From assembly GCA_017379935.1 (NCBI GenBank), contig JAFNVC010000011.1, forward strand, positions 1-51,302: a stretch of DNA of 51,302 nucleotides, in the 5' to 3' direction. Made by a program: the position numbers and the translations under genes. Shown here piece after piece: positions 13,610 through 34,118 of the stretch (its first letter is position 1; each line of letters begins with the position of its first letter). A model generated the notes under the pieces. The model worked only from the letters and a program-made list of their open reading frames with translations, was not told where the DNA came from and did not search any database. The DNA is from Clostridia bacterium. GTDB taxonomy: Bacteria > Bacillota > Clostridia > Oscillospirales > Acutalibacteraceae.

Positions 13610-14575
13610 TTATTCAAGGCAAAGCTTTATCAGATCATTGACATCAGCCGTTGCAAGGCACTCTACAGTGTCGGAAGCACCGTAGTAAATTTTAACCTCT
13701 CCGTTATCCTCTAAAATGTTACCGCAGGGGAATATAACGTCCTTTCGGAATCCGCCTTCAAGCTCATAATCCTTGTCGCATACGATAAGAGGCTTGTCAT
13801 ATTTACCGATAACCTTTGACGGGTCATTAAGGTCAAGGAGCATTATGCCGGCATAATACTGCTTCTTCCAGCTGTCCTCCCAACCGTTTTTACCTCTTGT
13901 AGGATCAAGCTCAACTGCGTGGAAGGTGGTCAGCCAGCCCTTGTCTGTTTTGATCGGCTGTGCTGCGGGTCCGATTTTATCATTCGCAAACGGAACGTGC
14001 TCAACGCCCATAACGAGTCTTGATTTTCCCCAATAAACAAGGTCGGGTGATTCCGAAAGCCAGATGTCAAATCTGTCCTTACCGTCACGGGAGTAGACTG
14101 GCATCGGTCTTTCAAGACGGACGAAATTGCCGTTGATTTTTTCGGGAAAAAGAACCATATTTCTGTTGTCGGGAACGGAAAGTGAGATAATGTCGAATTT
14201 ATCGAAATCGTCCGTTCTTGCGATACCGCCGCGCACACCATGCTTCGTACCTACTGCAAAGCAGACGTAGCAGACGCCGTCAATTACCGTTATACGCGGG
14301 TCGTAAACGCGGTTGATTTCCTCGTCGTTAAGCTCGAAGCAGGGCTTGTCCGATACATCCCAGTTGATGCCGTCATCACTTGTTGCAAATCCGATATTCG
14401 TACCCTCGAAGCTGGTGTTTCTGAACTCGCCGTAATCGTTTCTGAAAAGCATAACGTATTTTCCGTTATATTTTTCTACGGCAGCGTTGAATATCAGTGA
14501 GGCACTGTAGGGAATATCGTCTTTAGTGAGAACGGGCTTGTCGAGCTTTTTTATAATGTCACTTGTTTTATACAT
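13610..14575 (-). CDS. GH130-type glycoside phosphorylase
   Basis: 321 residues forming one five-bladed beta-propeller. Typical GH130 elements in order are 'NAAVEKYNGKYVMLFRND', SDDGINWD, VYDPRITVIDG, 'IGPAAQPIKTDKGWLTTFHA' and a final 'VKIYYGASDT'. Enzymes of this family phosphorolyse beta-mannosides (mannose-beta-1,4-glucose, mannan or N-glycan core oligosaccharides), producing mannose 1-phosphate; a few members hydrolyse instead. It has no signal sequence, so it acts in the cytoplasm. Last gene of a four-gene minus operon; its ATG overlaps the stop of the upstream gene. The precise acceptor sugar is not readable. Confidence 0.88.
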   Translation of the reverse strand: MYKTSDIIKKLDKPVLTKDDIPYSASLIFNAAVEKYNGKYVMLFRNDYGEFRNTSFEGTNIGFATSDDGINWDVSDKPCFELNDEEINRVYDPRITVIDGVCYVCFAVGTKHGVRGGIARTDDFDKFDIISLSVPDNRNMVLFPEKINGNFVRLERPMPVYSRDGKDRFDIWLSESPDLVYWGKSRLVMGVEHVPFANDKIGPAAQPIKTDKGWLTTFHAVELDPTRGKNGWEDSWKKQYYAGIMLLDLNDPSKVIGKYDKPLIVCDKDYELEGGFRKDVIFPCGNILEDNGEVKIYYGASDTVECLATADVNDLIKLCLE

Positions 14576-16680
14576 CAGTTGACACTCCTTTTTGCGTTTT
14601 TGAAATCGAGCAGCAGTCTGCTTTTACCGCTGTCAACAGCTATGATGCCGGGTTTTCTTTCGGCTGTGCAGAATTTGCAGTCATAGCGTGCGAATTCCTT
14701 TTCGGCAGGCTTGCCGTCAATGTTGAATTTACCGTCGTAGGATACTTCGAGCGTACCCGATGCGGTTGAATAATTAACACAGCCGCAGCCGAAATCAACG
14801 GTGTTGCTTCTGATTCGCGATTTGAACTCCTCGAAGGTTTCGGTGTCCGCGTCAGATAATTCAGTGATATAAATATGATAATCACCGCCGTAACGGCATA
14901 AATCAAATTCGTTTTCGAGCTTCAGCCCCTCGGGGAAGCTTCTTCCCTTGAGAAGACCGTTTGCGGAATTCTGATTGAACGGCCTGAATTGCATTTCACC
15001 GTTTGAAATCAAAGCGACGAAAACGCCGTTTTTTCTCGCGAAAACCCTGTTGCCGTCAAGCTCAAGCTCGTCGTAGAAAACTCTGGGCATATATGCGTGT
15101 GTCATTGATGCAATACCCGTTTCGCCGAGACGCTTTTTGTCGGGGATTTTATATATTGTCACGTTGACATTTTCGTTCTGAACGCTCATCGGCAGTCTGC
15201 CGTTGCCCACCCAGTAGCCGGGAGATGCACCGTATCTGCCGTTGCCGTCACCGGCGGGATGAGTTGTGAAGAGTGACAGCTCCTCTGCGATGCTCGCGCT
15301 CCATTCGTGATCCTGCGCTCCGCACATATCAACGCTTTTGCAGACGGCGGTTGACATTGAATAGTGAGCGTTGCGGTATGTGTAGATGTTGCCTCTGCCG
15401 AGCGCAATTCCGTGCGGCATAAGATTAAGCCTTGCCGCAGCCTTCTCCCAATTTACGGCTTTGAGTATGGTTAGATTAAGAAATTTAAAATAGCTTACAA
15501 ATGCATTGCGGTACATTTTGTTAGCCTTGAGATATCTGATTGTATTTTTGATAACTTCAGGATTCGTGAAGGTCTCTGCGCCCATCTGCGCCATAATCTG
15601 ATGCGGCTGCTGACCGACGAGTCCTTCTCTGACAAGATCCTCAGGTGAAAGACCGCAGCTCATTTTTGAAACGAATGCTTCCTTTGAAAGCGCAATATCC
15701 CTGATTGCCTGCGGAAGGGTATAGATTCCCTTTTTTACTATATCGTTAAAGCAAAGCACGATATAGTTCGGCTCCTTTTGGAGGGATGACTTAACAAGCT
15801 TCTTTTGAGCTTCGGAAAGGTGAGGGCTGTTAAGTACATCATCAGCGCCGTCAAATCCCCAGAGAATATTCATTGCAGCCTGAATGCTGTTGCCGATGCA
15901 GCTTGCCGCCTTGTTATTACCGTACATGCGCGAGCTGACGGCGGCAAAGCGGTTGTTTACGCTGTTGAGAGCAACGTCGAGCCAGAGAATATCCATTATA
16001 ATTTTCATCTGCTCAACAGATTTTTCGTCCTTTGAATACGCTATGTAATTTGCCATCGGAGCGATATCCTCGGCAAGATAGTTGTTGCTCAGATATTCCG
16101 AAAAGCCGTAGCTGAAGCGCTGCTGCATCCACGCGTCAATGCGCTCCTTCGCCTTTAACTGATGCTCCTTGCCCGTCATACCGTTGTTTGTAAAAATCTC
16201 ATCAGGCCATTCCTGACCTGCGAGATATTCACTGACAGCAAACAGAATAAGGTGGTTTTCCGACCAGTAGCACATACTGTCGTCGCCGGGCTCATCCATA
16301 AAATATTTAAAATCAAGAAAAGTTTTTCTGATAAGCGCTATGCACCTGTCGCTGAGGACCGCCGAACAGTCCTTATAAATTTTAAAAAGCATCTGTGCGC
16401 GGAAATCGGCACAGTCAAAACGCTTGCTCATATATTCCGACTGCTTAAGAAGCAGAGAATAAATCTCCTCCTCGGTAAAGGAAGGGGCTTGCTTTTCACC
16501 CGTAAGATGAAGATAAAGCGCATCGAAGCTTTTGCCGTTTACGTTAAGTGAGTATTTATCTGCGTCCGCCTTGTCCGGTGAATCGGGAACGGATTTTATC
16601 CGCATCAGATGCAGAAGCTCGAATACTGTCAGCAGCACCAAAAAAGCAGCAACGGCGCAGAGAGTATAAATAACAGCCAT
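14575..16680 (-). CDS. Membrane-anchored (alpha/alpha)-toroid plus beta-sandwich protein, possible polysaccharide lyase or hydrolase
   Basis: 701 residues from ATG 16680, which follows the upstream gene's stop at once and has GAGAGG upstream; a longer frame to 16740 exists. One N-terminal membrane segment (about residues 2-20) is followed by an all-alpha region with 'SENHLILFAVSEYLAGQ', then a beta-rich half containing AGDGNGRYGASPGYW and repeated strand motifs. The overall plan resembles heparinase/alginate-lyase-type enzymes, and SENH is suggestive of their Asn/His active sites, but I cannot place it in a named family. Operonic with GH130, a 2-hydroxyacid dehydrogenase and an isomerase. The anchor means the catalytic part is probably outside the membrane. 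Confidence 0.7.
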   Translation of the reverse strand: MAVIYTLCAVAAFLVLLTVFELLHLMRIKSVPDSPDKADADKYSLNVNGKSFDALYLHLTGEKQAPSFTEEEIYSLLLKQSEYMSKRFDCADFRAQMLFKIYKDCSAVLSDRCIALIRKTFLDFKYFMDEPGDDSMCYWSENHLILFAVSEYLAGQEWPDEIFTNNGMTGKEHQLKAKERIDAWMQQRFSYGFSEYLSNNYLAEDIAPMANYIAYSKDEKSVEQMKIIMDILWLDVALNSVNNRFAAVSSRMYGNNKAASCIGNSIQAAMNILWGFDGADDVLNSPHLSEAQKKLVKSSLQKEPNYIVLCFNDIVKKGIYTLPQAIRDIALSKEAFVSKMSCGLSPEDLVREGLVGQQPHQIMAQMGAETFTNPEVIKNTIRYLKANKMYRNAFVSYFKFLNLTILKAVNWEKAAARLNLMPHGIALGRGNIYTYRNAHYSMSTAVCKSVDMCGAQDHEWSASIAEELSLFTTHPAGDGNGRYGASPGYWVGNGRLPMSVQNENVNVTIYKIPDKKRLGETGIASMTHAYMPRVFYDELELDGNRVFARKNGVFVALISNGEMQFRPFNQNSANGLLKGRSFPEGLKLENEFDLCRYGGDYHIYITELSDADTETFEEFKSRIRSNTVDFGCGCVNYSTASGTLEVSYDGKFNIDGKPAEKEFARYDCKFCTAERKPGIIAVDSGKSRLLLDFKNAKRSVN

Positions 16681-16681
16681 C

Positions 16682-17677
16682 TTATGCCATCCTCTCAAGT
16701 GACTCAAGAGTAACCTCGTAATTTGTAGGCTCGCCTGCAAGCAGCTTTTCCATTTCTTCCATCATATAGTAAGCCATTCTCTGCGGCTCCTTGCCCGTAC
16801 TGCCTGCGATATGCGGAGTGAGGATTGCATTCGGAACCCAGAAAAGGGGACAGATGTAGGGGAAAAACTCTTTTTTTATAACATCAGCGACGAAGGTTCT
16901 CGACGGATGGCAGAGAAGCGACCACGCGAGCTGATATTCTGCAACCTGTGCGCCTCTGCCTGTGTTGATGAAGGTTGAACGCTTTTTCATTCTTTTGAAA
17001 AGCTTGCTGTTGAATATGTTTTCGAGCTCAGGCTTGTTAGCAAGATGGTTACTGATGATGTCACATTCGCTGAAAAGTGTTTCCATATCAACGAGCGTAA
17101 CACCGAGCTGCTTTGCCGTTTCCTCAGGGATGAACGGGTCGCAGGCATAAACCTCAACATCGAGTGCCTTAAGCCTTTCAGCTACCATTTTTCCTATCGC
17201 ACCGAGACCTACAAGACCGACCTTACAGCCGAAATTGCCTGTTGCGGAGTTGGCAAAGGCAAGAGCGCGGAGGGGAAGAAAACGGTAATTTTTTTCTGAC
17301 TGGAAATATCCCTTTGCCGCAAGTGTTATCTGTGCAAAGGTGTATTCCGCAACGGGAACGGCGTTAGCCGCAAAGGCGCTGAAAACCTTTATCCCGCTTT
17401 CAAGGAAGGGACGTGCAAAATACTGTACGGTACCTGCCGAATAAAAAACAGCCTTGAGCTTCGGCATATATTCCGCTATTTCTTCCTTTGTGAACTGAGG
17501 CATTCCCCAGGTCGAAAAAGCAATTTCGCAGTCCGTAAGAAAATCTGCATTTTCCTTGAGATTGCTCCGGTTGATTTTCTCTGAAAGCACACCGTATTCA
17601 CCGAGTTTTTTCAGAACCTCGGGAGTGTAAACCTTTGAAAACTGAAGCTGATTTGTACCGAAAAGTGCAATTTTCAT
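16682..17677 (-). CDS. D-isomer-specific 2-hydroxyacid dehydrogenase family protein
   Basis: 331 residues. NAD(P)-binding Rossmann motif GLVGLGAIG at residues 154-162. The catalytic triad is visible: Arg241 in NTGRGAQ, Glu270 in 'DVIKKEFFP', and His289 in LTPHIAGS. The pyridine-nucleotide specificity cannot be fixed. It would reversibly reduce a 2-keto acid or oxidise a related sugar-derived hydroxy acid in the cytoplasm. It sits between a TIM-barrel isomerase gene (TAATG stop-start overlap) and the toroid protein gene, so it belongs to a sugar route rather than to serine or lactate metabolism. Confidence 0.88.
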   Translation of the reverse strand: MKIALFGTNQLQFSKVYTPEVLKKLGEYGVLSEKINRSNLKENADFLTDCEIAFSTWGMPQFTKEEIAEYMPKLKAVFYSAGTVQYFARPFLESGIKVFSAFAANAVPVAEYTFAQITLAAKGYFQSEKNYRFLPLRALAFANSATGNFGCKVGLVGLGAIGKMVAERLKALDVEVYACDPFIPEETAKQLGVTLVDMETLFSECDIISNHLANKPELENIFNSKLFKRMKKRSTFINTGRGAQVAEYQLAWSLLCHPSRTFVADVIKKEFFPYICPLFWVPNAILTPHIAGSTGKEPQRMAYYMMEEMEKLLAGEPTNYEVTLESLERMA

Positions 17678-18435
17678 TATCTTTCACCTAACCTTGATTT
17701 AAACCTTGCAATATGTTTTTTCATGCACGACGGGAAGCCGTACAATCCGCAGGGGTATGTGTATTCGACGAGAATCAGGCCGTCGTAATTCAACGAGATT
17801 ATTTTATCAAGAAGAGCATCTATATATTTCGGCCTGAAGAAGGGGAACTGATCTCTCGACTGCTCGGAATATGAGATATGTATACATTGTATCAGAGGGA
17901 GCGTACGCTCAATTCTGTCAAGATCATATTCAGCCCTCTTGTATCGCGACTGAAAATATGTTCTGAAATTTTCACGGCCGATGTCATTGTGTATTTTCAG
18001 AAAAGCATCGGTATTGTTGTTGTATGTCCTGTCGTGACATTCCGGGCAGACGATGAGGCCGTATTCCTTTGCCGCGTCACAGATTGCCCTACCGTCTTCA
18101 ACGAGCTTTGTGTAGGTCGCTTCATCTGTTACCTCGCTGTCGGAGGTGCCGAGCCATACGCGGACAAAATCAGCACCCAGCGCAGAAGATATCTCGCAGA
18201 TTTGTTTCCATTCATCAGCCTTTTTGCTTCCTACACGGTAGTAGCTGCCGTAGGAGGAAATCGGGATTCCCGCATCGTCGCAGAGCTGTTTAGCCCTCCT
18301 TGCCGTCGGAACATCCTTTACGTGAATATCGCCGCCCCATTCGATGCAGTCCGCACCCGCTTCCGAAGCGATCCTGACTATTTTTTCAATGCTTTTTATC
18401 TGTCTGAAGGACGTTGATGTAAAACCGATTTTCAT
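17677..18435 (-). CDS. Sugar phosphate isomerase/epimerase-like TIM barrel (copy 1)
   Basis: 252 residues, a xylose-isomerase-like TIM barrel. Conserved features shared with copy 2 at 25726 are CIEWGGDIHV, 'ISSYGSYYRVG', 'VCPECHDRTYNNNTDAF', TYFQSRY and a late 'VEY' strand. The acidic and His residues are placed as the metal ligands of this fold usually are. Family members isomerise or epimerise sugars and sugar acids, and some relatives eliminate from 3-keto glycosides. First gene of the minus operon with a dehydrogenase, toroid protein and GH130. Its ribosome binding site (GGAGG, 18442-18446 region) lies directly after a long palindrome. Confidence 0.82.
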   Translation of the reverse strand: MKIGFTSTSFRQIKSIEKIVRIASEAGADCIEWGGDIHVKDVPTARRAKQLCDDAGIPISSYGSYYRVGSKKADEWKQICEISSALGADFVRVWLGTSDSEVTDEATYTKLVEDGRAICDAAKEYGLIVCPECHDRTYNNNTDAFLKIHNDIGRENFRTYFQSRYKRAEYDLDRIERTLPLIQCIHISYSEQSRDQFPFFRPKYIDALLDKIISLNYDGLILVEYTYPCGLYGFPSCMKKHIARFKSRLGER

Positions 18436-18502: not shown

Positions 18503-18510
18503 TAAAAAGA

Positions 18511-19687: not shown

Positions 19688-21157
19688 ATGGGTAAAATAA
19701 AAGATTTCTATCAGTCTATGAAAAATAATCCCGATGTTGCTCTCAAGGAGCAGGTAGGCTACGTTTCGGGTATCTTCGGCAACTGTATGGGTCAGGACTG
19801 CGTAGGTACATACACCGACCAGTTTATGTATGACTATATGGGTCTTGAGTCTAGGCACATTGTTGCGATGAAATCCGCAACTACGGGTGTCAATATCTTT
19901 ATTGCGCCTATTGTCGGTGCACTTCTCGATAACAACCGTTCGGGCAAGGGTAACGCGAGACGCTTTATGCTGGCATCGGCAATTCCGTTCACGCTCTCAT
20001 CAATCCTTCTTTTCATTGTTCCCTCGGCATCGCTTACCTTCAACGTGCTGTGGAGCTTCATTCTTTTTCTTACCTTCAATATTGCGGATACATTCTTCGA
20101 CGTTGCGCTGTCAACGCTTTCCGTACGAATGACACCCAATGCAAAATCAAGAAAGAATTTCTATACCGTTGCACAGATTGCATCAACCTTAGGCTCACTG
20201 CTTCCGGGCGGTCTTGTACCTATTATCATTGATGCTATGGACGGCGACTATAATTCGGAAAAATGGGCGTTCTTTACCGTTGCACTTCTTTTCGGCATCC
20301 TCGGTATGTTCACGATGCTTGTGCCGTGTATGACACTTAAGGAAAGAAATCTTGTTCTTCCTCCTAAGACTGAGAAAAAGGTCAGGCTTGACTTGAGGCT
20401 CATCCTTCTCAACAGACCGCTTCTTCTTCTTTCACTCAGCCAGTGTGTAGATTCGATCAGACAGGTCTGCTATAACGCTCTTCCCTTCTTCTACAAGCAG
20501 ACTCTTAATAAATATAGTATGAAGACTTTTGTTGAAGCAGGCTCAGCAACACTTTCTTACGGCTATCTTCTCTCAATCCCGTTTATCGGAAAGAAGCTTT
20601 CCTCGCGCGATATCGTTGTTATCAGCTATCTGCATACGGGTATATGCTATCTGCTTCTTGCTATCTTCGGTTATAAGAGTCTCTGGCTTGTCGGTATTCT
20701 CATTGCTCTGGGCGGTCTTCCGAATGCAGGTATGAATGCGGCAAGAAGAGTTCTTCTTGCTGACTCAACCGACTATATGGAATGGAAGAGCTATCAGAAA
20801 TACGGCGTTGCACAGCGTAATGAGGGTATGGTTTTTGCCTTCAATACGATGGTTTCAAGAATATCAGCTCTCTGGAAGGAGCTTCTCGTAAACGGCGGTC
20901 TTGCACTCATCGGCTATCAGAGCGCACAGAGAGTCAACGGTGTAATGGTTGAGGCTGTCCAGACTCCCGAAACTCTCCACGGAATTTTCCTTCTCGTTGT
21001 TATCCCCGGTATCATCGGCAATCTTCTTCCTGCGTTTATTATGATGTTCGATAACTTTACGGGTAAGCGTAAGGTAAAGATTATGGCAGAGCTTGAGGAA
21101 ATCAGAGCAGAGTCAAAGAAAAGACTCGAGGAAGCCGAAGCAATTGATGCTGAATAA
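19688..21157 (+). CDS. GPH-family (MFS) sugar:cation symporter
   Basis: 489 residues with about twelve membrane segments. Typical GPH/MelB traits are the early 'QVGYVSGIFGNCMGQD', the 'APIVGALLDNNRSGKGNARR' loop between helices 2 and 3, and long cytosolic termini, here ending in a charged helix (IRAESKKRLEEAEA). It would import an oligosaccharide or glycoside with Na+ or H+. AAGGAGG is 5 bases before the ATG. Its place between a phosphoesterase and a GH63-like enzyme suggests it imports the substrate of the latter. Confidence 0.9.
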   Translation: MGKIKDFYQSMKNNPDVALKEQVGYVSGIFGNCMGQDCVGTYTDQFMYDYMGLESRHIVAMKSATTGVNIFIAPIVGALLDNNRSGKGNARRFMLASAIPFTLSSILLFIVPSASLTFNVLWSFILFLTFNIADTFFDVALSTLSVRMTPNAKSRKNFYTVAQIASTLGSLLPGGLVPIIIDAMDGDYNSEKWAFFTVALLFGILGMFTMLVPCMTLKERNLVLPPKTEKKVRLDLRLILLNRPLLLLSLSQCVDSIRQVCYNALPFFYKQTLNKYSMKTFVEAGSATLSYGYLLSIPFIGKKLSSRDIVVISYLHTGICYLLLAIFGYKSLWLVGILIALGGLPNAGMNAARRVLLADSTDYMEWKSYQKYGVAQRNEGMVFAFNTMVSRISALWKELLVNGGLALIGYQSAQRVNGVMVEAVQTPETLHGIFLLVVIPGIIGNLLPAFIMMFDNFTGKRKVKIMAELEEIRAESKKRLEEAEAIDAE

Positions 21158-21170: not shown

Positions 21171-22823
21171 ATGCTACCGACAAAATGGGGACAGGGACAG
21201 CTTTTTGCGTTTTCTGCACTTGACGGCGAGTCCTTTTTCAGAGACGATTTCACAGGCACTCTCGCGGGTGATAAAATCGGCGTGATATTCCATACAAAAT
21301 GCCGCAGAACACTTTTCTTAACTGATGCAGCACATGATTTCAGCTGTGTTACTTCGGATATGCTTCTTTTGAAAAATGCAAGTGTGATTTTTGCCGGAAG
21401 ACACCTTGTTGTCGGCGAAATCGGCGGTGCAGCTAACGTTTTTGTGAGCGTTGACGGTGACTGTGAAATTATAAAAAAAGCCGATACGGAGATTCACGAC
21501 ACCTCTGACGGCGAGTTCACGGCTGTTTTAAAGAGAAACGGCAGATTTGCCTTCGCATTTGCGAAGGGTGCGGACGAAGCCGCTGAACTCTGCGAAAAGG
21601 GTATGTCGCTAGATCCTGAAAAGCTGAAAGCTCAGAAGAAAAAGCCGTATGAAGGCATTCCCGAGGACATGGAATATGCTGCGTTATATGCAAAATGTGT
21701 AAGCGTGATGAAAAGTCAGCTGTATTCGCCCGAGGGTAATATAAAAAGGATATGGTCAACACCTGACCGCCTTCCGCACAGGAATATGTGGCTGTGGGAT
21801 TCTGTTTTCCATGCAATCGGTCACAGACACCTTGATGCGAAGCTCGCAGAAAATCTTATTCTTGCACTTTTTGATGTGCAGCAGGACGGCTACATTCCGC
21901 ATATGGCAACTCCTGATTTTTGCTCGGGGGTAACTCAGCCTCCCGTCATCGCATGGGGCTCGTGGATGGTTTATGAAAAAAGCTCAGACAAGGAATTTCT
22001 GAAGACTGTCTTTGAAAAAAATAAGGCGTTTCTCCTGTGGTGCAGGTCGAACAGAAGAAAGAGTGCAAAGGAGCTCTATTCCTGGCACACAAAACCCGAG
22101 CTTAACAACCGCTGTGACGAATCGGGTATGGATAATTCACCGCGCTTTGATACTGCGAGCGACCTTTACGCGATCGACTTTTCCTGCTATATGGCGAATG
22201 AGACGCGCGCTATGCAGAAAATTGCATCAGAGCTTGGCGATAAAGACGGCGAGGCCTTCTTCGCAGAATGGAACGAAAAAATAAAAAGCGATATCAATGC
22301 CACTCTGTGGTGCGATGAGGACGGCTTTTATTACGATTATGATATTCAGAACGGCTGCTTCAATAAGGTGCAGTCTGTAGCATCCTTCCTGCCGGTTTTC
22401 GCGGGTGTATGTGATGAAAGGCAATGTGAAAGACTTGTTGCACATCTTGAAAATCCCGGAGAATTCGGGACGGAGCTTCCGATTCCCAGCATATCGAAAA
22501 AAGATGCGACCTTCGGCTCTGATATGTGGCGCGGTCCCGTCTGGATAAATTATAATTATATGATTTCAATGGGACTTAAGGAATACGGCTATTGCGGAAA
22601 AGCGGAAGAAATCGTAGCGAAAACGCTTGCGATTATCAACGAATGGTATAGTCTTACGGGTACTGTTTTTGAATTTTATGACAGTGAGAACCGAACACCG
22701 CCGTATTGCTTCAACCGTAAGGGTGAGATAGTTGAACCGTACGACTTCCGACTTAAATATCAATCAATCCGTGACTACGGCTGGACATCAACCCTCGCAC
22801 TCGATATGATTTGTGAAAAATAA
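21171..22823 (+). CDS. GH63/MGH-like (alpha/alpha)6 glycosidase
   Basis: 550 residues, no signal sequence, so cytoplasmic. A short N-terminal beta domain (about 1-150) precedes an (alpha/alpha)6 barrel. Diagnostic stretches are RNMWLWDSVFHAIG, QDGYIPHM, ESGMDNSPRFD and WRGPVWINYNYM, as in GH63 alpha-glucosidases and mannosylglycerate hydrolases. These carry acidic catalytic residues in the 'WDS' and 'GMDNSPR' regions. It probably cleaves an alpha-glucoside or alpha-mannoside brought in by the symporter encoded 13 bp upstream. AAGGAG precedes the ATG. The exact sugar specificity is not readable. Confidence 0.85.
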   Translation: MLPTKWGQGQLFAFSALDGESFFRDDFTGTLAGDKIGVIFHTKCRRTLFLTDAAHDFSCVTSDMLLLKNASVIFAGRHLVVGEIGGAANVFVSVDGDCEIIKKADTEIHDTSDGEFTAVLKRNGRFAFAFAKGADEAAELCEKGMSLDPEKLKAQKKKPYEGIPEDMEYAALYAKCVSVMKSQLYSPEGNIKRIWSTPDRLPHRNMWLWDSVFHAIGHRHLDAKLAENLILALFDVQQDGYIPHMATPDFCSGVTQPPVIAWGSWMVYEKSSDKEFLKTVFEKNKAFLLWCRSNRRKSAKELYSWHTKPELNNRCDESGMDNSPRFDTASDLYAIDFSCYMANETRAMQKIASELGDKDGEAFFAEWNEKIKSDINATLWCDEDGFYYDYDIQNGCFNKVQSVASFLPVFAGVCDERQCERLVAHLENPGEFGTELPIPSISKKDATFGSDMWRGPVWINYNYMISMGLKEYGYCGKAEEIVAKTLAIINEWYSLTGTVFEFYDSENRTPPYCFNRKGEIVEPYDFRLKYQSIRDYGWTSTLALDMICEK

Positions 22824-26469: not shown

Positions 26470-28244
26470 AATACGTCCTCTTCGTTGATCATATTTAAAT
26501 AATGCTCAAAGCTTTTTTGCTCATACGGCACGGGGGAGACCTTGATAAATTCGACCTTTCCGTCCTTTGTAACGGTCAGATAATCCCTGTAGCATCTGTT
26601 TTCTGCTACCGCTTTTCCGTTTTTTACGAATATTGCACCGCCGCGGCTTCCTGTTTCGGGACATTCGGCAACGATAGCCTCAAGAAGTGCCTTCATGCTT
26701 GTGAGCATATCCTTATCACGATAATATTCCGCGAGGCTTCTGTGCTTTGGCGGATAGTCGGCAAGCACAGCGGATACCTCGACGAGAAGCGCAACACATC
26801 CCTCGTAATCTCTTTTGAAGGATGCCACCTGACTCATTTTCTTTCTGAAATGAGAATAGTCGGCATCGCTTTTCTCAAAATCGGGTTTGTCTGCATCAGA
26901 ATCGGGAATATTTAATCCGGCTGACGGCTTGCTTTTAATATGCCTTGCAGCCACAAGCCCGCCGACCTGCGTATCGTTAAGGGCAGATCCGCCGGGACGC
27001 GAAAGACCGAAGGAGCCGGATGCCTCTCCGATAACGTAAAGTCCCTTTATGTCGGTTTCAAAATTATTGTCCGTATATACACCGCCGTTGTTGTGCTGAG
27101 CGCAGACCGCGATGCGAAGCGGATCCTTATGCAAATCTATGCCTTGCCTTAAGTATACGTCAATAGCCTTACTGTTGAGCTTTTCAAGCCTTTCAATCGG
27201 TGTTTCGGCATAGCAGTCCGTGTTTTTAATATATTCTCTTGCCTCATCGCTTAATTTTTCAAAGTCGAATCCGAGCGGGTTCTTTGTATAATCGAGGTAA
27301 ACCGTTCTTCCGTTCAACATTTCGTTATGCACCGCAAGGTCGATTTTTGAGCTTTTATCGGCTCTGTCAGAGGAGAACGGCCACTGATATCCCTTGAGAA
27401 AAACAAGGCTGTATGCCTCGTGCAAATCGTCAAAATAATCGCCGAGGAATTCGTGCTCGTTGCCGTCTGTGTCCTTGCTGACAAGTCTCGGTACAACCTG
27501 CATAAAGCTTCCCGAAACATTCCAGCGGAAATCCACGGAGGCCATTCCGTACTGCCATTGGGAGAAATTGCACATCCGCACTCCCGCGTCGATAAGCATA
27601 CCCGTCATACCGTGCTGTGATTCGGGGTAAACGCTGTCCTCATATATGCAGGCGGGCGCACCCGTAGCGCAGATTACATTTTCGGCATAAATATTTTCTT
27701 CTGTATCATTATTAAGATTGAGCACCCTTACACCGCAGACAGCTTTGCCGTCTGTCAGAATTTTTGTAACGAGCATCTTGTCAAAAAGGGGAGTGCCGTT
27801 TTTTTCAAGAACGACCTGCTCCAACTTTTGAGTCATAGCTCTTGAGGTCAGCGGACCGACGGATGTTGCGCGCAGAGTGTTGTCGTGGTCGGTCTTATAG
27901 CCGGGATAACAGCCGTATTTATCAGTCGGGAAGCCGACGCCGTATTCGCAAAGGCGCAGGAAGCATTCGCGGCTGTTTACCGCTTCAATGTACATCCTTT
28001 CACCGTCGCACGAGCCGCCCGAAAACATATCGGATGCCATTTTGTACGGACTGTCAGGTGTGAAGCCGTCCATTGAAATTTTATAATATGTCTGCTTGTC
28101 ACTGCCCGTGTTTCTTGATGTTCCCGAAAGTCGGTCTTCAGTCACCACGGCGATATCTGTTATACCCTCGCGGTAAAGTCTGTCAGCGGCACCGTAAGCC
28201 GCGGCACCGCTGCCGATTATCAGGCATTTGTATATTTTTCTCAT
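26466..28244 (-). CDS. FAD-dependent oxidoreductase, fumarate reductase/succinate dehydrogenase flavoprotein type
   Basis: 592 residues. The N-terminal dinucleotide-binding GSGAAAYGAADRL (residues 10-22) and a late 'GLYVIGEASGSFGLSRPGGSALNDTQVGG' FAD motif define the family. The 'NTGSDKQTYYK' segment and a C-terminal helical domain are also consistent. There is no signal or Tat motif, so it is cytoplasmic. The C-terminus overlaps the isomerase gene and the start overlaps the SDR gene (ATGA), so it is tightly coupled. Substrate unknown; in this company a sugar-derived alcohol, enone or unsaturated acid is likely. Confidence 0.85.
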   Translation of the reverse strand: MRKIYKCLIIGSGAAAYGAADRLYREGITDIAVVTEDRLSGTSRNTGSDKQTYYKISMDGFTPDSPYKMASDMFSGGSCDGERMYIEAVNSRECFLRLCEYGVGFPTDKYGCYPGYKTDHDNTLRATSVGPLTSRAMTQKLEQVVLEKNGTPLFDKMLVTKILTDGKAVCGVRVLNLNNDTEENIYAENVICATGAPACIYEDSVYPESQHGMTGMLIDAGVRMCNFSQWQYGMASVDFRWNVSGSFMQVVPRLVSKDTDGNEHEFLGDYFDDLHEAYSLVFLKGYQWPFSSDRADKSSKIDLAVHNEMLNGRTVYLDYTKNPLGFDFEKLSDEAREYIKNTDCYAETPIERLEKLNSKAIDVYLRQGIDLHKDPLRIAVCAQHNNGGVYTDNNFETDIKGLYVIGEASGSFGLSRPGGSALNDTQVGGLVAARHIKSKPSAGLNIPDSDADKPDFEKSDADYSHFRKKMSQVASFKRDYEGCVALLVEVSAVLADYPPKHRSLAEYYRDKDMLTSMKALLEAIVAECPETGSRGGAIFVKNGKAVAENRCYRDYLTVTKDGKVEFIKVSPVPYEQKSFEHYLNMINEEDVL

Positions 28245-28978
28245 AAGCGCCTCACGTTGAATCCGCCGTCACAGTCAATAACCGTGCCGGTGCAGAAATC
28301 GAAATTACCCTGAGCTACCGAGGCTACACACTTTGCAACATCCTCGGGCAGTCCCATTCTGTTGATCGGTGTAATGCCTTCTGCGATGAGCTTTTCGTAT
28401 TTTTCTTTTACCTTCGAGGTCATATCCGTTTCAATTATACCGGGTCTTATTTCAATAACGCTTACTCCGTATTCGGCAAGTCTTGCTGCAAAAAGCTTTG
28501 TTATCATTGAAATTCCCGCCTTGGAGATGCAGTATTCGCCTCTGTTGACCGAAGCGGTATAAGCGGACATTGATGATATGTTAACGATTCGGGATTTTTC
28601 GTTTTCTGTGAGAAGGGGAGCAAGTGTCTGTGTGACGAAGAAAGTACCCTTGAGGTTGATATCTGTCAGAAAATCGAAATCCTCGGGCGTGATGTCAAGA
28701 ATATCCTTTCTCTCTCTCGGCGCAACACCTGCGTTGTTAACAAGCAGATCGAGCTTACCGAAATTATCCCTTGCAAAGCTGAAAAGTCCTTTTCTGTCCT
28801 CCTCGGACGAAATATCGCAGGGAAAGAAAAACACCTTGTCTGCAAAAGAAGTCTTCAGGCTCTTTATATCCTCACTTTCGTTTCTGGCTGTGATGATAAC
28901 CGTATAATTGATATTAAGCAGCGCCTCGGCTATAGCCTTACCGATTCCGCGGCTGCCTCCCGTAACGACAGCAACCAT
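28241..28978 (-). CDS. Short-chain dehydrogenase/reductase
   Basis: 245 residues. The NAD(P) motif TGGSRGIG is at residues 6-13, NNAG follows, and the catalytic Ser-Tyr-Lys appears in 'VNISSMSAY...EYCISKAG'. The end 'GTVIDCDGGF' matches 3-oxoacyl-ACP-reductase-like SDRs. It would interconvert a hydroxyl and a ketone on a small substrate. The gene has its own AAGGTGAG ribosome site 9 bp after the flavin oxidoreductase gene and overlaps the FAD oxidoreductase gene downstream. Confidence 0.9.
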   Translation of the reverse strand: MVAVVTGGSRGIGKAIAEALLNINYTVIITARNESEDIKSLKTSFADKVFFFPCDISSEEDRKGLFSFARDNFGKLDLLVNNAGVAPRERKDILDITPEDFDFLTDINLKGTFFVTQTLAPLLTENEKSRIVNISSMSAYTASVNRGEYCISKAGISMITKLFAARLAEYGVSVIEIRPGIIETDMTSKVKEKYEKLIAEGITPINRMGLPEDVAKCVASVAQGNFDFCTGTVIDCDGGFNVRRL

Positions 28979-28987: not shown

Positions 28988-30211
28988 TTATTTCTTTAAT
29001 ACGAATTTGTTGTAATAGGGCAGATAAACCTCACTGTCTCTTATGACACAGCCGGAAACCGTACCTGCGCGCATAAGCTCGGAGCATTTACTGCACTTGA
29101 TGCAGACCTTTGATTTATCAAGAGTGCCGTTTTCTGTGTAATCTTTGTAGAAGGTCGGATACGCGAAGGTCATTCTGCCGAAGCCGGCAAGGTCACCGAT
29201 ACCCGCAGATATAAGCTCCTCGGCATAATTAACGGCATTTTCATCCTCGTATGACAGAGCGGAAACTGCAAATATAATATCAGGGAAGGCATCTGTAATT
29301 TCTTTTGTAACGTCGTAAACACGCTTCATTCCGATTCTGCCGTCCTCGGGAGATTTTACCGAATAAGGACGGTTGATATGCGGTATAAGATAGGGGTTGC
29401 CTATCGTAAGATTGATAAATTCAAGTCCCTTGTCACGAAGCATTGAGATAATCTGCTTCGTTTCCGTAAGGTCGATTTCCTCTTTTTCGTTAACGCCGAA
29501 GCCGTAACCATAGGGGAAGCAGTCGCAGGCGTTGAGTCTCGTTGTGATGAAGGCCTTTTCACCGACAGCCTCCTTTACCGCATCGATACAGTCAAGGTAG
29601 AGTCTTGTGCGGTTTCCGAGTGCTCCGCCGTAGCTTCCTTCACGCTCATAAGCGCTTAAAAGCTCGTTGAAAAGATAGCCGTGACAGCACTTGACATCCA
29701 TACCGTCGAAGCCTGCCTCAAGTGCAAGCTCGGCTGCCCTTTTGTACATTGAGGGGATGGAGGAAAGATATTCGTCCGTTGCAACGGTGAAGGGCTGATC
29801 CTCCTTGCCCTTCTCCCAGAGCGCGTTTCTGTATGCGACAATCGGCTCGGGTGTTCCGTTCGGCTTGCTGTAGCGTCCGCTGTGGGTGAGCTGAACTATC
29901 ATAATCGGCTCAAAGCCGTGAAGCTCACGCGATTTTGCTTTAACAGCACTGACAAGCTCTCTGAAGCTGCCGAGCGTGCTTTCGTTTATGTAAAGCTGAC
30001 GCGGATTTGCTCTGCCCTCGTTACAGACGGCAGTTGCTTCAAGCCATATAATTCCGGGCGCACCATCCGCAAAACGAAGATATCTGCGCTTTGTCAGCTC
30101 ATCAACAGCACCCTGAGCGGTACCGTCACAGCCCTCCATAGGCTGAAAGAGTATTCTGTTATGAGCTTTTCTGCCGTGAATTTCAATGGGTGTGTCAAGC
30201 AGATTTTTCAT
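28988..30211 (-). CDS. NADH:flavin oxidoreductase, old yellow enzyme / dienoyl-CoA reductase type
   Basis: 407 residues forming an FMN TIM barrel: 'NRILFQPMEG', 'GGWLEA'-like 'GIIWLEATAV', 'IVQLTHSGRYS' and DVKCCHGYLFNELLS (the substrate/FMN His region). The C-terminus has a cysteine cluster CIKCSKCSELMRAG plus a later Cys, reminiscent of the 4Fe-4S motif of 2,4-dienoyl-CoA-reductase relatives, but it lacks their second FAD/NAD domain. It would reduce a conjugated C=C. First gene of the redox operon, with a promoter at 30241-30269. Confidence 0.87.
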   Translation of the reverse strand: MKNLLDTPIEIHGRKAHNRILFQPMEGCDGTAQGAVDELTKRRYLRFADGAPGIIWLEATAVCNEGRANPRQLYINESTLGSFRELVSAVKAKSRELHGFEPIMIVQLTHSGRYSKPNGTPEPIVAYRNALWEKGKEDQPFTVATDEYLSSIPSMYKRAAELALEAGFDGMDVKCCHGYLFNELLSAYEREGSYGGALGNRTRLYLDCIDAVKEAVGEKAFITTRLNACDCFPYGYGFGVNEKEEIDLTETKQIISMLRDKGLEFINLTIGNPYLIPHINRPYSVKSPEDGRIGMKRVYDVTKEITDAFPDIIFAVSALSYEDENAVNYAEELISAGIGDLAGFGRMTFAYPTFYKDYTENGTLDKSKVCIKCSKCSELMRAGTVSGCVIRDSEVYLPYYNKFVLKK

Positions 30212-30314: not shown

Positions 30315-30343
30315 TTGAAATCCCAGTGCAACTATGCTATACT
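30315..30343 (+). promoter_or_regulatory. Promoter of the symporter-dehydrogenase pair
   Basis: TTGAAA (30315-30320), 17-bp spacer ending ATGC, TATACT (30338-30343). AGGAGG at 30361-30366 and ATG 30377 follow. Confidence 0.85.
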
Positions 30344-30376
30344 GTCTATGCAAAATGTATAGGAGGTATCTTTATA

Positions 30377-31831
30377 ATGAGCAAGAAACAGCCTAAGCCG
30401 CAGAATCCTCTGTGGCAGACAACGAAGCCAGAAAGAAATAGCTACTACACCTATTTCTTCGGACAGAATATGATTTACAATATGATAGCAGGCTATCTTA
30501 CTACATTTCTTCTTCTTGTCGGAATAAACCCCGTCAAATCAGCGGCGGTTATGCTTGCCGTCAAGGTGTGGGATGCCGTCAACGATGCCATTTTCGGCGT
30601 TATTTTCGATAAGTTCAAGTTCAGGGGCGATAAGAAATATATCCCGTGGCTTAAAATTGCCTGTGCCGCAACACCGCTTGCGACCGTGGCAATCTTCATT
30701 ATCCCCACGGCGGCGAGCGAGACGGTCAAGCTTATATGGTTTGCACTCGCGTATATCATCTGGGATACCGCGTACACAATCTGCGATGTGCCTGCCTTCG
30801 GTATTATCACCGCAATGACAAGCAATATCGAGGAGCGTAACACGATTCTCTCTCTTAAGGGAATCACGGGCGGTGTCGGCTCGGCTCTTACAACCGTGCT
30901 CGTAACCCTTCTTATCAGCGAATTCGTCGGTCTCGGCTACGGCCCCGTTTCCGTCATTGTTGCGATTGTGGCTATGGCAACGATGTTTCCTGTCTGCAAG
31001 CACTGTCAGGAAAGAAACAAAACCGTTGACGACGAGCAGTTTACCGTCAGAAGAATGCTCAGATACGTTATCAGCAACAAGTATCTTCTCATTTATTATA
31101 TCGGCTATATCTTCTATTCGGGTGCACAGACCTATAACGCCCTTCATATGATTCTCGCATATTATATCTATAATAATTCAGTAGCATCCCTTATTACCGG
31201 TACCGTCGCGGCGCTTCCTCAGCTGTTTATGGCTCTTCTTGTGCCGAAAATTATCAGAAAAATCGACAAGACAAAGCTCTTTATGATAAGCACGGTTGCT
31301 ACCATTCTTCTTTCCTTCCTCATCCTTCCGACGAGAAGCAACTTCATCCTTTTCGTCATAACCTATATGCTTCGTTCAATCCCGCTCGGTATTATCGGCG
31401 TTCTTTCCTTTACCTTCACACCTGACTGTGCCGAATACGGTCAGTATACCACGGGCACGGAGGCAAAGGGCATCACCTTCGCTATCCAGACCTTTGCGGT
31501 CAAGCTTGCGGCTGCAATTTCGGGCTCAATGGGACTTGCTCTCCTCGGCTGGTTCGGCTTTAAGACGGAGTTTGAAATCGGCGGTGTAAAGCAGGAGGTC
31601 ACAAGCTTTGCTGACCTTGATGCAATCAACGCTATATCACAGCAGTCGGCAGAGGCTCTTGACGGATTGTGGTTCACCTATAATATCGTTCCGATTATCG
31701 GCATCGTGATTGCACTCATCATCTGGAGCTTCTATAAGCTCAACGATAAGGACGTGCAGGTAATGGCAGACTGCAATATCGGCAAAATTACAAGGACCGA
31801 GGCAGAAAAGCTTCTTTCAAGAAAGTATTGA
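30377..31831 (+). CDS. GPH-family (MFS) sugar:cation symporter
   Basis: 484 residues from ATG 30377 (AGGAGG 10 bases upstream; the open frame extends further but runs over the promoter). About twelve membrane segments. GPH features include 'YFFGQNMIYNMIAGYLTTFL' in helix 1, a conserved 'KVWDAVNDAIFGVIFDK' loop with its Asp residues in helix 2, and a charged C-terminal tail. It is followed after 14 bp by a Gfo/Idh/MocA dehydrogenase, so the imported compound is probably oxidised soon after entry. It belongs to the same family as, but is a different branch from, the symporters at 19688 and 40146. Confidence 0.9.
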   Translation: MSKKQPKPQNPLWQTTKPERNSYYTYFFGQNMIYNMIAGYLTTFLLLVGINPVKSAAVMLAVKVWDAVNDAIFGVIFDKFKFRGDKKYIPWLKIACAATPLATVAIFIIPTAASETVKLIWFALAYIIWDTAYTICDVPAFGIITAMTSNIEERNTILSLKGITGGVGSALTTVLVTLLISEFVGLGYGPVSVIVAIVAMATMFPVCKHCQERNKTVDDEQFTVRRMLRYVISNKYLLIYYIGYIFYSGAQTYNALHMILAYYIYNNSVASLITGTVAALPQLFMALLVPKIIRKIDKTKLFMISTVATILLSFLILPTRSNFILFVITYMLRSIPLGIIGVLSFTFTPDCAEYGQYTTGTEAKGITFAIQTFAVKLAAAISGSMGLALLGWFGFKTEFEIGGVKQEVTSFADLDAINAISQQSAEALDGLWFTYNIVPIIGIVIALIIWSFYKLNDKDVQVMADCNIGKITRTEAEKLLSRKY

Positions 31832-31845
31832 CAGGGGGCTTGATT

Positions 31846-32832
31846 ATGTCTGAAAAAATCAGATTCGGTATCGTCGGTACGGGAACAATCGCGCACCGCT
31901 TTGCCGAGGCAATAAAGAATGTCGATAACGCTCAGCTTGTTGCCGTTGCGTCCAGAACACGGGAAAATGCAGAAAAATTCGGCGATGAATTCAGTATTCC
32001 CGTGCGCTTTGACAGCTACGAAAAAATGGCTCAGTCCGATGTTATAGATGCCGCTTATATCGCTGTACCTCATTCGGGACATATTGACTGCTCGTGCCTT
32101 ATGATGAATAACGGAAAGCACGTTCTTTGCGAAAAACCGATGGCGGTCAACCTTGCCGAAGCGCAGGAAATGTTCCGATGTGCCGAGGAAAACAATGTCC
32201 TTCTTATGGAAGCTATGTGGGCAAGGCTTGTTCCGGGTACGCTGAAAATGCTTGAAATTGTCGATGAGGGAATCCTCGGCGATATCCTCGGTGTCGAAGG
32301 CAAATTCTGCTATACGATGGATGAGGACGAAATGGATCATCACGTTTTCAAGCCTGAAAACGGCGGAGGCTCTCTGCTCGATGTCGGCGTTTACGGACTC
32401 AATTTTGCGAGCTGGTATCTCGGCAAGGATGTTGTCGGAATTGATGCACAGTCCGATTTTTACAATGGCGTCGACAGCCACACCTGCGCCTTGCTTAAAT
32501 ACAAAAACGGCGCAATCGCTGATATTTCGAGCGCGATACTTTTAAGAAAACCGAACGAGGGATTTGTCTACGGCAGTAAGGGCTATGCTTATCTTCGCAG
32601 ATTCTACGCACCGCAGGAGATTGAGCTTCATCTGAATAACGGTGAAAATCAGACGATTTCCGTTCCGTATGCGGGCAACGGCTTTGAGGAGCAGATCACG
32701 CATTTCAGCGATTGTGTCCTCAACTCGCTTAAGGAAAGTCCGATTGTCACAAGAGCGCAAACGCTTTATATCACCCGACAGATGGACGAAATCCGCAGAA
32801 TCACGGGAATAAAATATCCGCAGGATAAATAA
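31846..32832 (+). CDS. Gfo/Idh/MocA-family oxidoreductase (copy 1)
   Basis: 328 residues from ATG 31846 (AGGGGG 7 bases upstream). Rossmann motif GIVGTGTIAHRF at the N-terminus, the EKPMAVN motif (catalytic Lys in 'CEKP'), and the C-terminal 'GGGSLLDVGVYGLNFASWYLG' dimer sheet with the substrate-site Asp/Tyr region. It uses NAD(P) to oxidise a ring hydroxyl, often C1, C3 or an inositol position. Its coupling to a GPH symporter gene suggests an imported glycoside or sugar as substrate. Confidence 0.92.
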   Translation: MSEKIRFGIVGTGTIAHRFAEAIKNVDNAQLVAVASRTRENAEKFGDEFSIPVRFDSYEKMAQSDVIDAAYIAVPHSGHIDCSCLMMNNGKHVLCEKPMAVNLAEAQEMFRCAEENNVLLMEAMWARLVPGTLKMLEIVDEGILGDILGVEGKFCYTMDEDEMDHHVFKPENGGGSLLDVGVYGLNFASWYLGKDVVGIDAQSDFYNGVDSHTCALLKYKNGAIADISSAILLRKPNEGFVYGSKGYAYLRRFYAPQEIELHLNNGENQTISVPYAGNGFEEQITHFSDCVLNSLKESPIVTRAQTLYITRQMDEIRRITGIKYPQDK

Positions 32833-32840
32833 GAACAAAA

Positions 32841-32877
32841 AAGTGTCTATAAAAACGAAAGGCTTTTACAGACACTT
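32841..32877. terminator. Bidirectional terminator between the two Gfo/Idh/MocA genes
   Basis: AAGTGTCTATAAAA (32841-32854) pairs with TTTTACAGACACTT (32864-32877), one mismatch, with A- and T-rich flanks. Confidence 0.85.
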
Positions 32878-32888
32878 AATTTTTATGT

Positions 32889-34118
32889 TTACTTCAGTTC
32901 ATCATAAAACTCGCTGAGATATACTCTGCGGTTTTCCTTCATCGAAATGTTTGCCGCCATACCGATACCGATTGACATCATGCCTGCGCGCGTGTCTGCC
33001 ATCTGTCCCAAGGGGTCGCTCGTGCAGCCGATGAAGAGGTTTTCTCTGATTTTTTCGTCGGAGCCGCCGTGTCCGCCGGGGAGATCCTGCGGTGCCTGAA
33101 TGGTGATCTTTTCACCAAGACGGTTGAAAATAACGATAGCGTTGTTCACACCCTGACCGAGCTCGGTGTATCTGCCGTCCATTTTGCAGAATTCGAGTCT
33201 GCCGTCCGTGCCGTTGAAGGCGATTTTCAGACCCTCGTAGGGTGAATGCGCCGTCAGTGAATAGCTCATTACAGCACCTCTTTTGTAAAGTACGTTGAGG
33301 CTTACCGTATCCTCAATGTCAATCTCCTCGGAGAAAATACAGCGGTCTCTGTAATATCCGTCCGCGTCCTCGCATTGAAGGTAAAGCTTGTCCATCGGCG
33401 GCTGATCAATATCGAGGTAATATTCGCATTTCTTCTTGTACGGGCAGGTCAGACAGCGCTCCGAGCGCTCCTCGCGTGTCGGGCCGTAGAATTTTCTTGA
33501 GCCGAAGGCATTGACCGCAACGGGGTCGTCCTCTAAAAACCAGTTGATTAAATCAAAGTGATGGGTCGATTTATGCACGAGCAGAGAGCCTGAATTTTCT
33601 CTTTGTCTGTGCCAACGGCGGAAATAGTCCGCACCGTGCTGCGTATCGAGCATCCATTCGTAATGCACGCTGAGAATCTCACCGATAACACCGCTTTTAA
33701 TAACCTCCTTGACCCTTGCAAAGAAAGGAAGATATCTGAGGTTGAAAACGACGGTAACGGTCTTGCCGGATTTCTCTTCTGCCGCCTTGATTGCGTTTGC
33801 CTTTTCGAAGGTGGTTGTCATCGGCTTTTCGACAATAACGTCACAGCCTGCCTCGAGCGCCTTGATAACGTAAAAATCGTGCATACAGTCCTTCGTAGTG
33901 ACGATAACCGTATCAGGCTTCGTCTCGCGGAACATTTTATCAAAATCGTCGTAAACGGGCACGTCTGTACCGCCGTAAAAGCTTACGAGCGCGGCACGCT
34001 TCGGATTGATATCATAAACACCGCAAAGCTCGATGTGCTCACTGAAATCCTTTAAAATAGGCTCGGCATAGCCCTCGATACCGCGGATTCCGCAGCCGAC
34101 CTGAACAAACTTTTTCAT
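32889..34118 (-). CDS. Gfo/Idh/MocA-family oxidoreductase (copy 2), Cys-containing
   Basis: 409 residues from ATG 34118 (GGGGTG upstream). N-terminal 'VQVGCGIRGIEGY' replaces the strict GxGxxG spacing. The 'VIVEKPMTTTFEKAN' catalytic Lys motif is present, as is 'SGSLLVHKSTHHFDLINWFL' for the substrate His. A CLTCPYKKKCEYY motif (four cysteines with the later 'YLQC' and 'RC') sits in the C-terminal domain. This insert, seen in a subset of this family, could bind zinc. It is longer than copy 1 and only distantly related to it. Monocistronic, convergent with copy 1. Confidence 0.9.
   Translation of the reverse strand: MKKFVQVGCGIRGIEGYAEPILKDFSEHIELCGVYDINPKRAALVSFYGGTDVPVYDDFDKMFRETKPDTVIVTTKDCMHDFYVIKALEAGCDVIVEKPMTTTFEKANAIKAAEEKSGKTVTVVFNLRYLPFFARVKEVIKSGVIGEILSVHYEWMLDTQHGADYFRRWHRQRENSGSLLVHKSTHHFDLINWFLEDDPVAVNAFGSRKFYGPTREERSERCLTCPYKKKCEYYLDIDQPPMDKLYLQCEDADGYYRDRCIFSEEIDIEDTVSLNVLYKRGAVMSYSLTAHSPYEGLKIAFNGTDGRLEFCKMDGRYTELGQGVNNAIVIFNRLGEKITIQAPQDLPGGHGGSDEKIRENLFIGCTSDPLGQMADTRAGMMSIGIGMAANISMKENRRVYLSEFYDELK

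Follow-up and report, generated by a model that had tools for sequence, protein, structure and literature searches.

The question raised by this locus is what a compact group of redox enzymes and barrel proteins does among the carbohydrate genes of a Clostridia bacterium. We analysed a stretch of 51,302 nucleotides (assembly GCA_017379935.1, contig JAFNVC010000011.1, positions 1 to 51,302), called the window here; its genome (G000) is 85% complete and consists of 36 contigs. Two minus-strand operons were found in the window. The right one, running from 30211 to 25726, encodes an old-yellow-enzyme homologue (OYE), a short-chain dehydrogenase/reductase (SDR), a flavin adenine dinucleotide (FAD) protein and a TIM barrel (TIM_R), with gaps of +9, -4 and -4 bp between the genes. 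The left one, running from 18435 to 13610, encodes a second barrel (TIM_L), a D-2-hydroxyacid dehydrogenase (2HADH), a protein without Pfam match (U721) and a GH130 enzyme, with gaps of -1, +1 and -1 bp. Judged by their spacing, these are two tightly coupled operons.

A sequence-only reading had combined the barrels and redox enzymes with two Gfo/Idh/MocA dehydrogenases, two GPH symporters and GH130/GH63-like enzymes into one candidate oxidation-first route for glycosides or rare sugars. Open reading frames and Pfam domains confirmed every gene of that list in its place, and the two barrels are paralogues as claimed, both being AP_endonuc_2 proteins that are 49% identical over the aligned part. 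The two Gfo genes lie outside the core operons, as do HAD, beta-helix and phosphoesterase genes.

As far as sequence comparison can tell, this module, which many Clostridia carry and which often lies near enzymes that cut plant sugars, probably serves to degrade unusual sugar acids without oxygen by an undescribed route. More specifically, and with slightly less than even confidence, we read it as a pathway that would act anaerobically on uronic-acid glycosides or the ends of glycans by oxidation, elimination and reduction, and that would feed the 2-keto-3-deoxygluconate (KDG) or the glucuronate pathway. The reading is built on gene identities, conservation, co-occurrence, retained active-site residues and neighbours, all of which were observed.

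Conservation of the gene set

Named genomes were scanned with the FAD protein as query, which yielded 11 loci from near relatives. These are metagenome-assembled genomes of Clostridia/Oscillospiraceae, and for ten of the eleven the title names a ruminant gut site. The order OYE-SDR-FAD-TIM_R was retained in 7 of the 11 (L004, L005, L006, L007, L008, L010 and L013), and a symporter gene precedes TIM_R in L006, L007 and L010. L009 and L014 end at a contig edge, L011 holds SDR-FAD only, and in L012 the FAD gene is divergent from TIM_L-2HADH-symporter-U721. The 2HADH gene comes directly after TIM_R in L005 and L013 and is the divergent neighbour of OYE in L007 and L010. It thus looks as if a single recurring set had been divided between the left and the right operon of the window. 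In L004 a 90% identical symporter gene is divergent from the OYE operon as in the window. Other genes that recur near the module are beta-helix genes (L004, L005, L012, L013), HAD (L004) and Gfo1 (L008, 84% identical). The sequence-only reading was to be given up if its genes were not kept together in relatives; the neighbourhood search found OYE, SDR, FAD protein and TIM, in part with 2HADH, conserved jointly, so it does not fall on that ground.

More distant loci with the FAD gene were fetched from 46 of 52 other class genomes (FAD match E<=1e-40; six partial or fragmentary matches were left out) and from 24 of 25 additional genomes of the order, plus plasmid and E. coli records. The resulting 85 FAD-selected loci are not independent, 11 of them being the near relatives of the window. 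L110 and L123-L125, in which no FAD gene was recognised, were dropped from the operon table, and L123-L125 from the whole-locus count. In the 84 operons with the FAD gene we counted OYE in 50, SDR in 55, both in 46, TIM in 21, 2HADH in 19, TIM with 2HADH in 13 and Gfo in 13. Over the 85 whole loci the counts were 61 for OYE, 57 for SDR, 26 for 2HADH and 25 for TIM. The triad of OYE, SDR and FAD protein was found in 49 of the 85 loci (8 among the 11 near relatives, 41 among the 74 others), and its frequent partners are the AsbF-like metal barrel and the D-2-hydroxyacid dehydrogenase.

The triad also varies in its members. A DHO_dh-like protein takes the OYE place in L060, L061 and L121 (the domain search, made on L060 only, gave DHO_dh and ferredoxin motifs), and a zinc-dependent alcohol dehydrogenase is present in the operon with SDR missing in L060-L063, L102, L121 and L122. 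Except in L102, the FAD proteins of these variant loci are distant (30-36% identical). In L098-L100, L103 and L106 the OYE is 841-895 aa long, and the three tails that were read from the sequence look like a nucleotide-binding reductase domain. Constant throughout are a protein with flavin mononucleotide (FMN) and Fe-S, an FrdA-like FAD protein and an alcohol dehydrogenase that depends on NAD(P).

Since all these loci had been chosen through the FAD gene, a reverse test was run from the barrel. The FAD protein is present in 53 of the 291 class genomes at E<=1e-40, which gives the background; the barrel profile finds 36 of the 291, and 25 of these 36 carry the FAD protein, with 6.6 expected (p 2e-13). 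Some of the barrels in the profile are themselves FAD-linked, a bias, and the test is therefore also given without the six genomes from which the profile took barrels: 19 of 30, with 4.9 expected (p 6e-10). When f43, a taxonomic family, was removed too, the count became 13 of 24 (3.3 expected, p 7e-7). A count by taxonomic family, with hand-tallied labels, gave 16 of 21, where about 7 were expected (p about 1e-5). Six f43 genomes have the barrel gene amid other genes, and there, too, it co-occurs with the FAD protein. Of 30 loci, 13 have 2HADH in the short stretch surrounding the barrel. The five proteins have concordant distance matrices (r 0.43-0.95, reached by 0 of 999 permutations each), and shared ancestry contributes to this concordance. 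By the conserved order in relatives and the reverse test, the arrangement is more than chance.

Barrels with 2HADH also occur elsewhere: the pair recurs with LacI, parts of an ATP-binding cassette (ABC) transporter and DUF2264 in Sinorhizobium pSymB and Chelatococcus, and with an oligopeptide-type ABC system in Marinovum. A haloarchaeon has its barrel gene next to heparinase II/III genes, with a GH3 gene at a distance of 5 kb.

Barrels, redox proteins and the pathways they resemble

Searched alone, TIM_R matched a single solved structure at E<=0.01, the 3-dehydroshikimate dehydratase AsbF (PDB 3DX5). The profile of the barrel family also placed AsbF first (6.3e-25), followed by IolI (8e-8) and D-tagatose 3-epimerase (1.2e-6); by the last two scores a link to inositol or epimerase enzymes is weak, not nil. 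The barrels thus match no characterised uronate isomerase, an identity that would have spoken against the sequence-only reading. Invariant in 17 aligned barrels are Tyr67, Arg94, Glu134-x-His136, Gln164, His188 and Glu227. Of these, Tyr67, Arg94, Glu134, His136 and His188 align with AsbF Tyr70, Arg102, Glu142, His144 and His198, which PMC9324987 gives as active-centre residues. Among the AsbF metal ligands Glu142, Asp172 and Glu253, the first is kept, the second is replaced by Gln164 in all 17 sequences, and the third, which lies beyond the printed alignment, likely corresponds to Glu227; AsbF Lys200 is not kept. The barrels are therefore kin of AsbF by sequence and differ from an AsbF-type dehydratase in the metal ligand set, and their context is sugar-related, unlike the siderophore context of AsbF.

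Two other groups of metal barrels were compared. C-deglycosidases have the metal ligands Glu147/Asp179/His269/Glu305 and the catalytic His149 (PMC8563793), and AtOGE has His132/Asp163/His189/Glu233 and His134 (PMC10628242). Against the C-deglycosidase site, the ExH motif, His188 and Glu227 are kept in our barrels, and Gln164 stands at the place of the Asp, as placed through the AsbF alignment. The shared ExH supports a chemistry of proton abstraction and elimination. None of the 8 profile matches at E<=0.001 was named a deglycosidase, and this, together with the change from Asp to Gln, argues against placing the barrels among the deglycosidases of the C-deglycosidase or AtOGE type.

These residues bear on the known cleavage of 3-keto-glycosides (as in DgpABC or AtOGE), in which a Gfo/Idh protein would oxidise C3, the barrels would eliminate the aglycone, and OYE and the FAD protein would process the aglycone only. 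The logic of oxidation followed by elimination on a metal barrel is the same, the catalytic His of an ExH (or HxH) motif is common to our barrels, the C-deglycosidase (E147-x-H149) and AsbF, 13 of the 84 operons contain Gfo genes, and two long frames beside the Rhizobium FAD gene look like GMC oxidoreductases in their sequence. Nevertheless we consider this explanation unlikely, because beyond the missing profile match and the Gln at the metal-ligand position, no adjacent pair of differing barrel subunits exists in the window: TIM_L and TIM_R belong to separate operons with 7.3 kb between them, and side-by-side subunits and the Asp ligand of the DgpBC type are both lacking. Neither are the Gfo genes of the window part of the conserved operons, and as glycoside 3-dehydrogenases they fail by far: the NCBIfam cut-offs of the BT_2158/BT_2159 families are 750 and 650 bits, and the scores are 40.1 and 31.5 for Gfo1 and 33.6 and 33.1 for Gfo2. 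Moreover, no counterpart of OYE or of the FrdA-like protein was noticed in the available parts of PMC8563793 and PMC10628242. The results support the conserved redox and barrel set of the sequence-only reading and do not support its membership of the known Gfo/Idh plus barrel C- and O-deglycosidase pathways.

The OYE has Oxidored_FMN as its only Pfam domain, with no Pyr_redox_2 and no other NAD(P)H or FAD domain detected. Its Cys370, Cys373, Cys376 and Cys388 are at least 90% conserved (51 sequences), and Lys174 aligns with the first His of the HxxHGYL motif in two solved NADPH dehydrogenases. This short OYE, with no NAD(P)H domain detected, may receive its electrons from another protein, for which the FAD protein is a candidate. 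In the latter, the motif AHYTMGG of the FrdA substrate site is aligned as AQHNNGG, with Gln on the FrdA His, and the Arg of HGANRLGS is kept as Arg416. The replaced motif with Arg416 kept makes the FAD protein a separate subfamily, and it is not a fumarate reductase flavoprotein proper. The SDR passes the PRK12745 cut-off, as does the E. coli SDR that lies beside the E. coli FAD relative. In 2HADH, R241, E270 and H289, presumably the catalytic triad, are at least 90% conserved (21 sequences).

A reductive cascade on plant aglycones, similar to equol formation or bile-acid dehydroxylation, would use the same redox proteins in another way: glycosidases would free the aglycone, OYE would reduce the C=C bond, the SDR the ketone, and the FAD protein would remove oxygen. 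The equol pathway (DZNR/DHDR/THDR) also combines an OYE with 4Fe-4S and an SDR (PMC10297411). The OYE of the window scores best with NamA, mycofactocin-OYE and BaiCD-type models, and GH78 genes are present in the window. THDR may be an FAD protein, while the review on this pathway names it otherwise, and we draw no claim from it. Yet we hold the aglycone cascade to be improbable, since the OYE has CX2CX2CX11C and no detected NAD(P)H domain, where daidzein reductase has CX2CX3CX12C and NAD(P)H motifs; its bile_acid_BaiCD score is 84 with a cut-off of 825, which sets it outside the bai system; and some relatives have lyase, KDG and UxaC genes as neighbours.

A third possibility is hydroaromatic acid catabolism of the quinate/shikimate type, in which the AsbF-like barrel would dehydrate a dehydroshikimate-like ring and the redox enzymes would handle the ring. 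Among solved proteins AsbF is much the closest to the barrels (6e-25), a BD-FAE-like esterase is encoded in the window, coenzyme A (CoA)-transferase and hydratase genes lie beside the E. coli homologues, and L059 and L112 contain ABC transporter genes which, read from the sequence with no domain search, look Liv-type. The Gln in place of Asp172, the loss of Lys200 and the sugar-acid neighbours of some relatives speak against it, and we regard it as distinctly unlikely.

A proposed route through uronic acids

The preferred reading, an oxidise-eliminate-reduce route for uronic-acid compounds, takes its substrate class from the neighbours of the module in some relatives. PL33-like heparinase-fold lyases are encoded inside the operons of L045, L053, L054 and L073, and a profile of these four matches PDB 8R73 at 1.3e-140; this structure is listed with the PL33 paper PMC11848413, in which a word search found nothing on gene context. 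Directly behind SDR-FAD-lyase in L045, a fusion of 2-keto-3-deoxy-6-phosphogluconate (KDPG) aldolase and PfkB kinase is encoded in one reading frame (349-1953). L058 contains PfkB kinase and KDPG aldolase genes, L117 a protein of the PfkB kinase cluster and GH4, and UxaC lies near the FAD gene in L101 and L105. These lyase, KDG kinase/KDPG aldolase, UxaC and GH4 neighbours point to uronic-acid glycans or glycosides. The FAD protein occurs in 20 of the 44 genomes with PL33-like proteins, with 8.0 expected. Among the matches listed, 7 of 128 lyase places fall within 10 kb (1.2 expected, p 2e-4; G385 and G049, with 36 heparinase-family matches each, left out). This proximity test was tallied by hand, took the genome fraction to be 0.009 and was devised after the operons had been seen; of its seven genomes three belong to f43, and we would not lean on it alone.

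In the established route, uronates from lyases (PL) and GH88/GH105 are handled by KduI, KduD, KdgK and KdgA. The module shares with it the lyases and the KDG kinase/KDPG aldolase in some relatives, and the window SDR resembles KduD, among many SDR models. Unlike there, OYE and the FAD protein have no role in that route, and neither KduI nor GH88/105 above cut-off was found in the window genome (85% complete). Among 15 FAD-carrying genomes, searches gave KduI for 5, GH88/105 above cut-off for 5 and neither for 9. G080, G471 and G128, like the window genome, are among these 9; they make up three of the four genomes whose operon contains a PL33 gene, and the fourth, G198, has both KduI and GH88/105.

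We infer the substrate class, every reaction, and the order and direction of the reactions as follows. A ring hydroxyl would be oxidised to a ketone by the SDR, the zinc-dependent alcohol dehydrogenase or a Gfo protein. The AsbF-like barrel would then take the alpha proton and eliminate the beta substituent, an aglycone or a hydroxyl. OYE (FMN/Fe-S) and the FAD flavoprotein would reduce or shift the resulting C=C bonds, and 2HADH with the SDR would adjust the hydroxy or keto acid to a product that enters the KDG or glucuronate pathway.

Several results weigh against this reading. TIM and 2HADH are often missing from the triad loci (20 of 49), and the FAD protein stands alone in 13 of the 85 loci (five near contig ends, three with the DHO_dh variant, two rhizobial). 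TIM_R as a single query sequence had three other matches at E<=1e-15 among 199 genomes of the phylum; none of them has a FAD, OYE, SDR or 2HADH gene nearby, and the loci of the barrel relatives L123-L125 gave no functional hint. Only 3 of 55 PL33-like places in the class sample fall in module operons, the proximity is weak for KDPG aldolase (3 of 85, p 0.04) and UxaC (2 of 61, p 0.1), and the window itself has no recognised lyase. The 15 genomes in which KduI and GH88/105 were sought all carry the FAD gene and have no comparison group, so no association is shown. Finally, the E. coli FAD and SDR relatives adjoin genes for a CoA-transferase and an enoyl-CoA hydratase, a setting that does not resemble sugar metabolism.

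A bolder variant, which seems very doubtful to us, is a redox bypass of the GH88/KduI route through a comenate-like pyrone, starting from the 4,5-unsaturated uronide made by a lyase. Its allylic C3 hydroxyl would be oxidised, and the product, with a carboxylate on C5, C4=C5, a C3 ketone, a C2-H and a leaving group at C1, would be a ring-oxygen analogue of 3-dehydroshikimate. The AsbF-like barrel might remove the C1 group to give the pyrone, which the FMN/4Fe-4S and FAD proteins, with SDR and 2HADH, would reduce to a KDG-type acid.

That there is no pathway, and unrelated redox genes simply gathered in a glycan-degradation region, deserves hardly any credence: the 20-kb stretch does include genes not conserved with the module, but conserved order, translational coupling and the genome-wide co-occurrence of barrel and FAD protein make chance unlikely.

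Other genes and wider meaning

The features of the window are collected in Table 1.

Table 1. Genes of the two operons and their neighbours in the window
Feature	Position	Strand	Basis
OYE-family FMN protein, 407 aa, C-terminal 4Fe-4S-type Cys motif C-x2-C-x2-C-x11-C	28988..30211	-	Pfam Oxidored_FMN
SDR, PRK12745 type, C-terminus GGFNVRRL	28241..28978	-	NF009386/PRK12745 298.7 bits, cut-off 250; family tails tallied
FAD protein, fumarate reductase / L-aspartate oxidase kin, own subfamily GTSRNTGSDKQT	26466..28244	-	Pfam FAD_binding_2, NadB/FrdA relatives
TIM_R, AsbF-like xylose-isomerase-type barrel	25726..26469	-	Pfam AP_endonuc_2; nearest solved AsbF
TIM_L, TIM_R paralogue, AP_endonuc_2 barrel	17677..18435	-	Pfam, 49% identity to TIM_R
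D-2-hydroxyacid dehydrogenase (2HADH)	16682..17677	-	Pfam 2-Hacid_dh_C
U721, 701 aa, start ATG at 16680	14575..16680	-	Pfam-less; hydrophobic N-terminus resembling a membrane anchor
GH130 phosphorylase-type enzyme	13610..14575	-	Pfam
GPH-type symporter, divergent from OYE operon	30326..31831	+	Pfam MFS_2
Gfo/Idh/MocA oxidoreductase 1 (Gfo1), overlapping symporter gene, non-core	31828..32832	+	Pfam, NCBIfam
Gfo/Idh/MocA oxidoreductase 2 (Gfo2), non-core	32889..34127	-	Pfam, NCBIfam
GPH-type symporter 1	19688..21157	+	Pfam MFS_2
MGH1/GH63-like glycoside hydrolase	21171..22823	+	Pfam

For U721 no Pfam or NCBIfam match was found, and a PDB profile search was empty at E<=5. In 11 aligned sequences D109, C110, D112, E161-N162-H163, R271, Q476, H494, H548 and Y550 are invariant, and its relatives sometimes lie beside GPH or Gfo genes. 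A second Pfam-less family (c8, about 565 aa) lies inside operons, at 13477-15177 of L054 and also in L073, L077 and L083. Profile comparisons, with thin alignments of 2 to 11 sequences, showed no relation of U721 or c8 to DUF2264, nor of U721 or DUF2264 to PL33.

At 34231-37974 the window encodes consecutively a BD-FAE-like esterase, a GH127-like protein and a GDPD phosphodiesterase, and L005 and L013 likewise have GDPD and esterase genes near the module. The region is bordered by two GH78-type rhamnosidase genes (11232-13553 and 44249-46417), and L004 has a GH78 relative near the module.

Further loci contain the FAD gene in other company. An island of E. coli SA186 between ytfB and rplI (L072; also L069 and L150) has the order TetR, SDR (PRK12745), TIM barrel, enoyl-CoA hydratase, CoA transferase, FAD protein and MFS or TRAP transporter. 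Its FAD protein is 37% identical to that of the window, and the FAD gene is present in 3117 of 5426 complete E. coli genomes. In Subdoligranulum variabile (L067, OY725857.1) an SDR-FAD pair shares the locus with an IlvD/EDD-type dehydratase and, as read from the sequence, with a LacI-like regulator and Liv-type-looking ABC genes.

In PMC7371122 (gutSMASH), OYE/4Fe-4S proteins are reported from putative saccharide clusters of gut Clostridia, with 80 predicted families. By the predictions of that paper, Clostridia have many saccharide clusters that contain Fe-S flavoenzymes and are uncharacterised, so the general idea is in print. The sequences of its phylogeny contained Oxidored_FMN and Pyr_redox_2; the window OYE, lacking the latter domain, lies outside the Fe-S flavoenzyme superfamily in that sense. 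Our literature searches, limited to open-licence PMC papers, gave no description of the gene set of the module. The module would work partly like 3-keto-glycoside elimination and partly like the equol/bai reductive cascades, and fails the tested defining features of each.

The route proposed here yields a testable prediction for lyase-carrying species without GH88 and KduI. If it is true, many Clostridia would process sugar acids by a flavoprotein oxidise-eliminate-reduce route and not by hydrolases and isomerases, and four or five enzyme subfamilies, perhaps with two Pfam-less families, would gain functions. If the pyrone variant were true, anaerobic sugar breakdown would have a new kind of intermediate in the form of a pseudo-aromatic pyrone.

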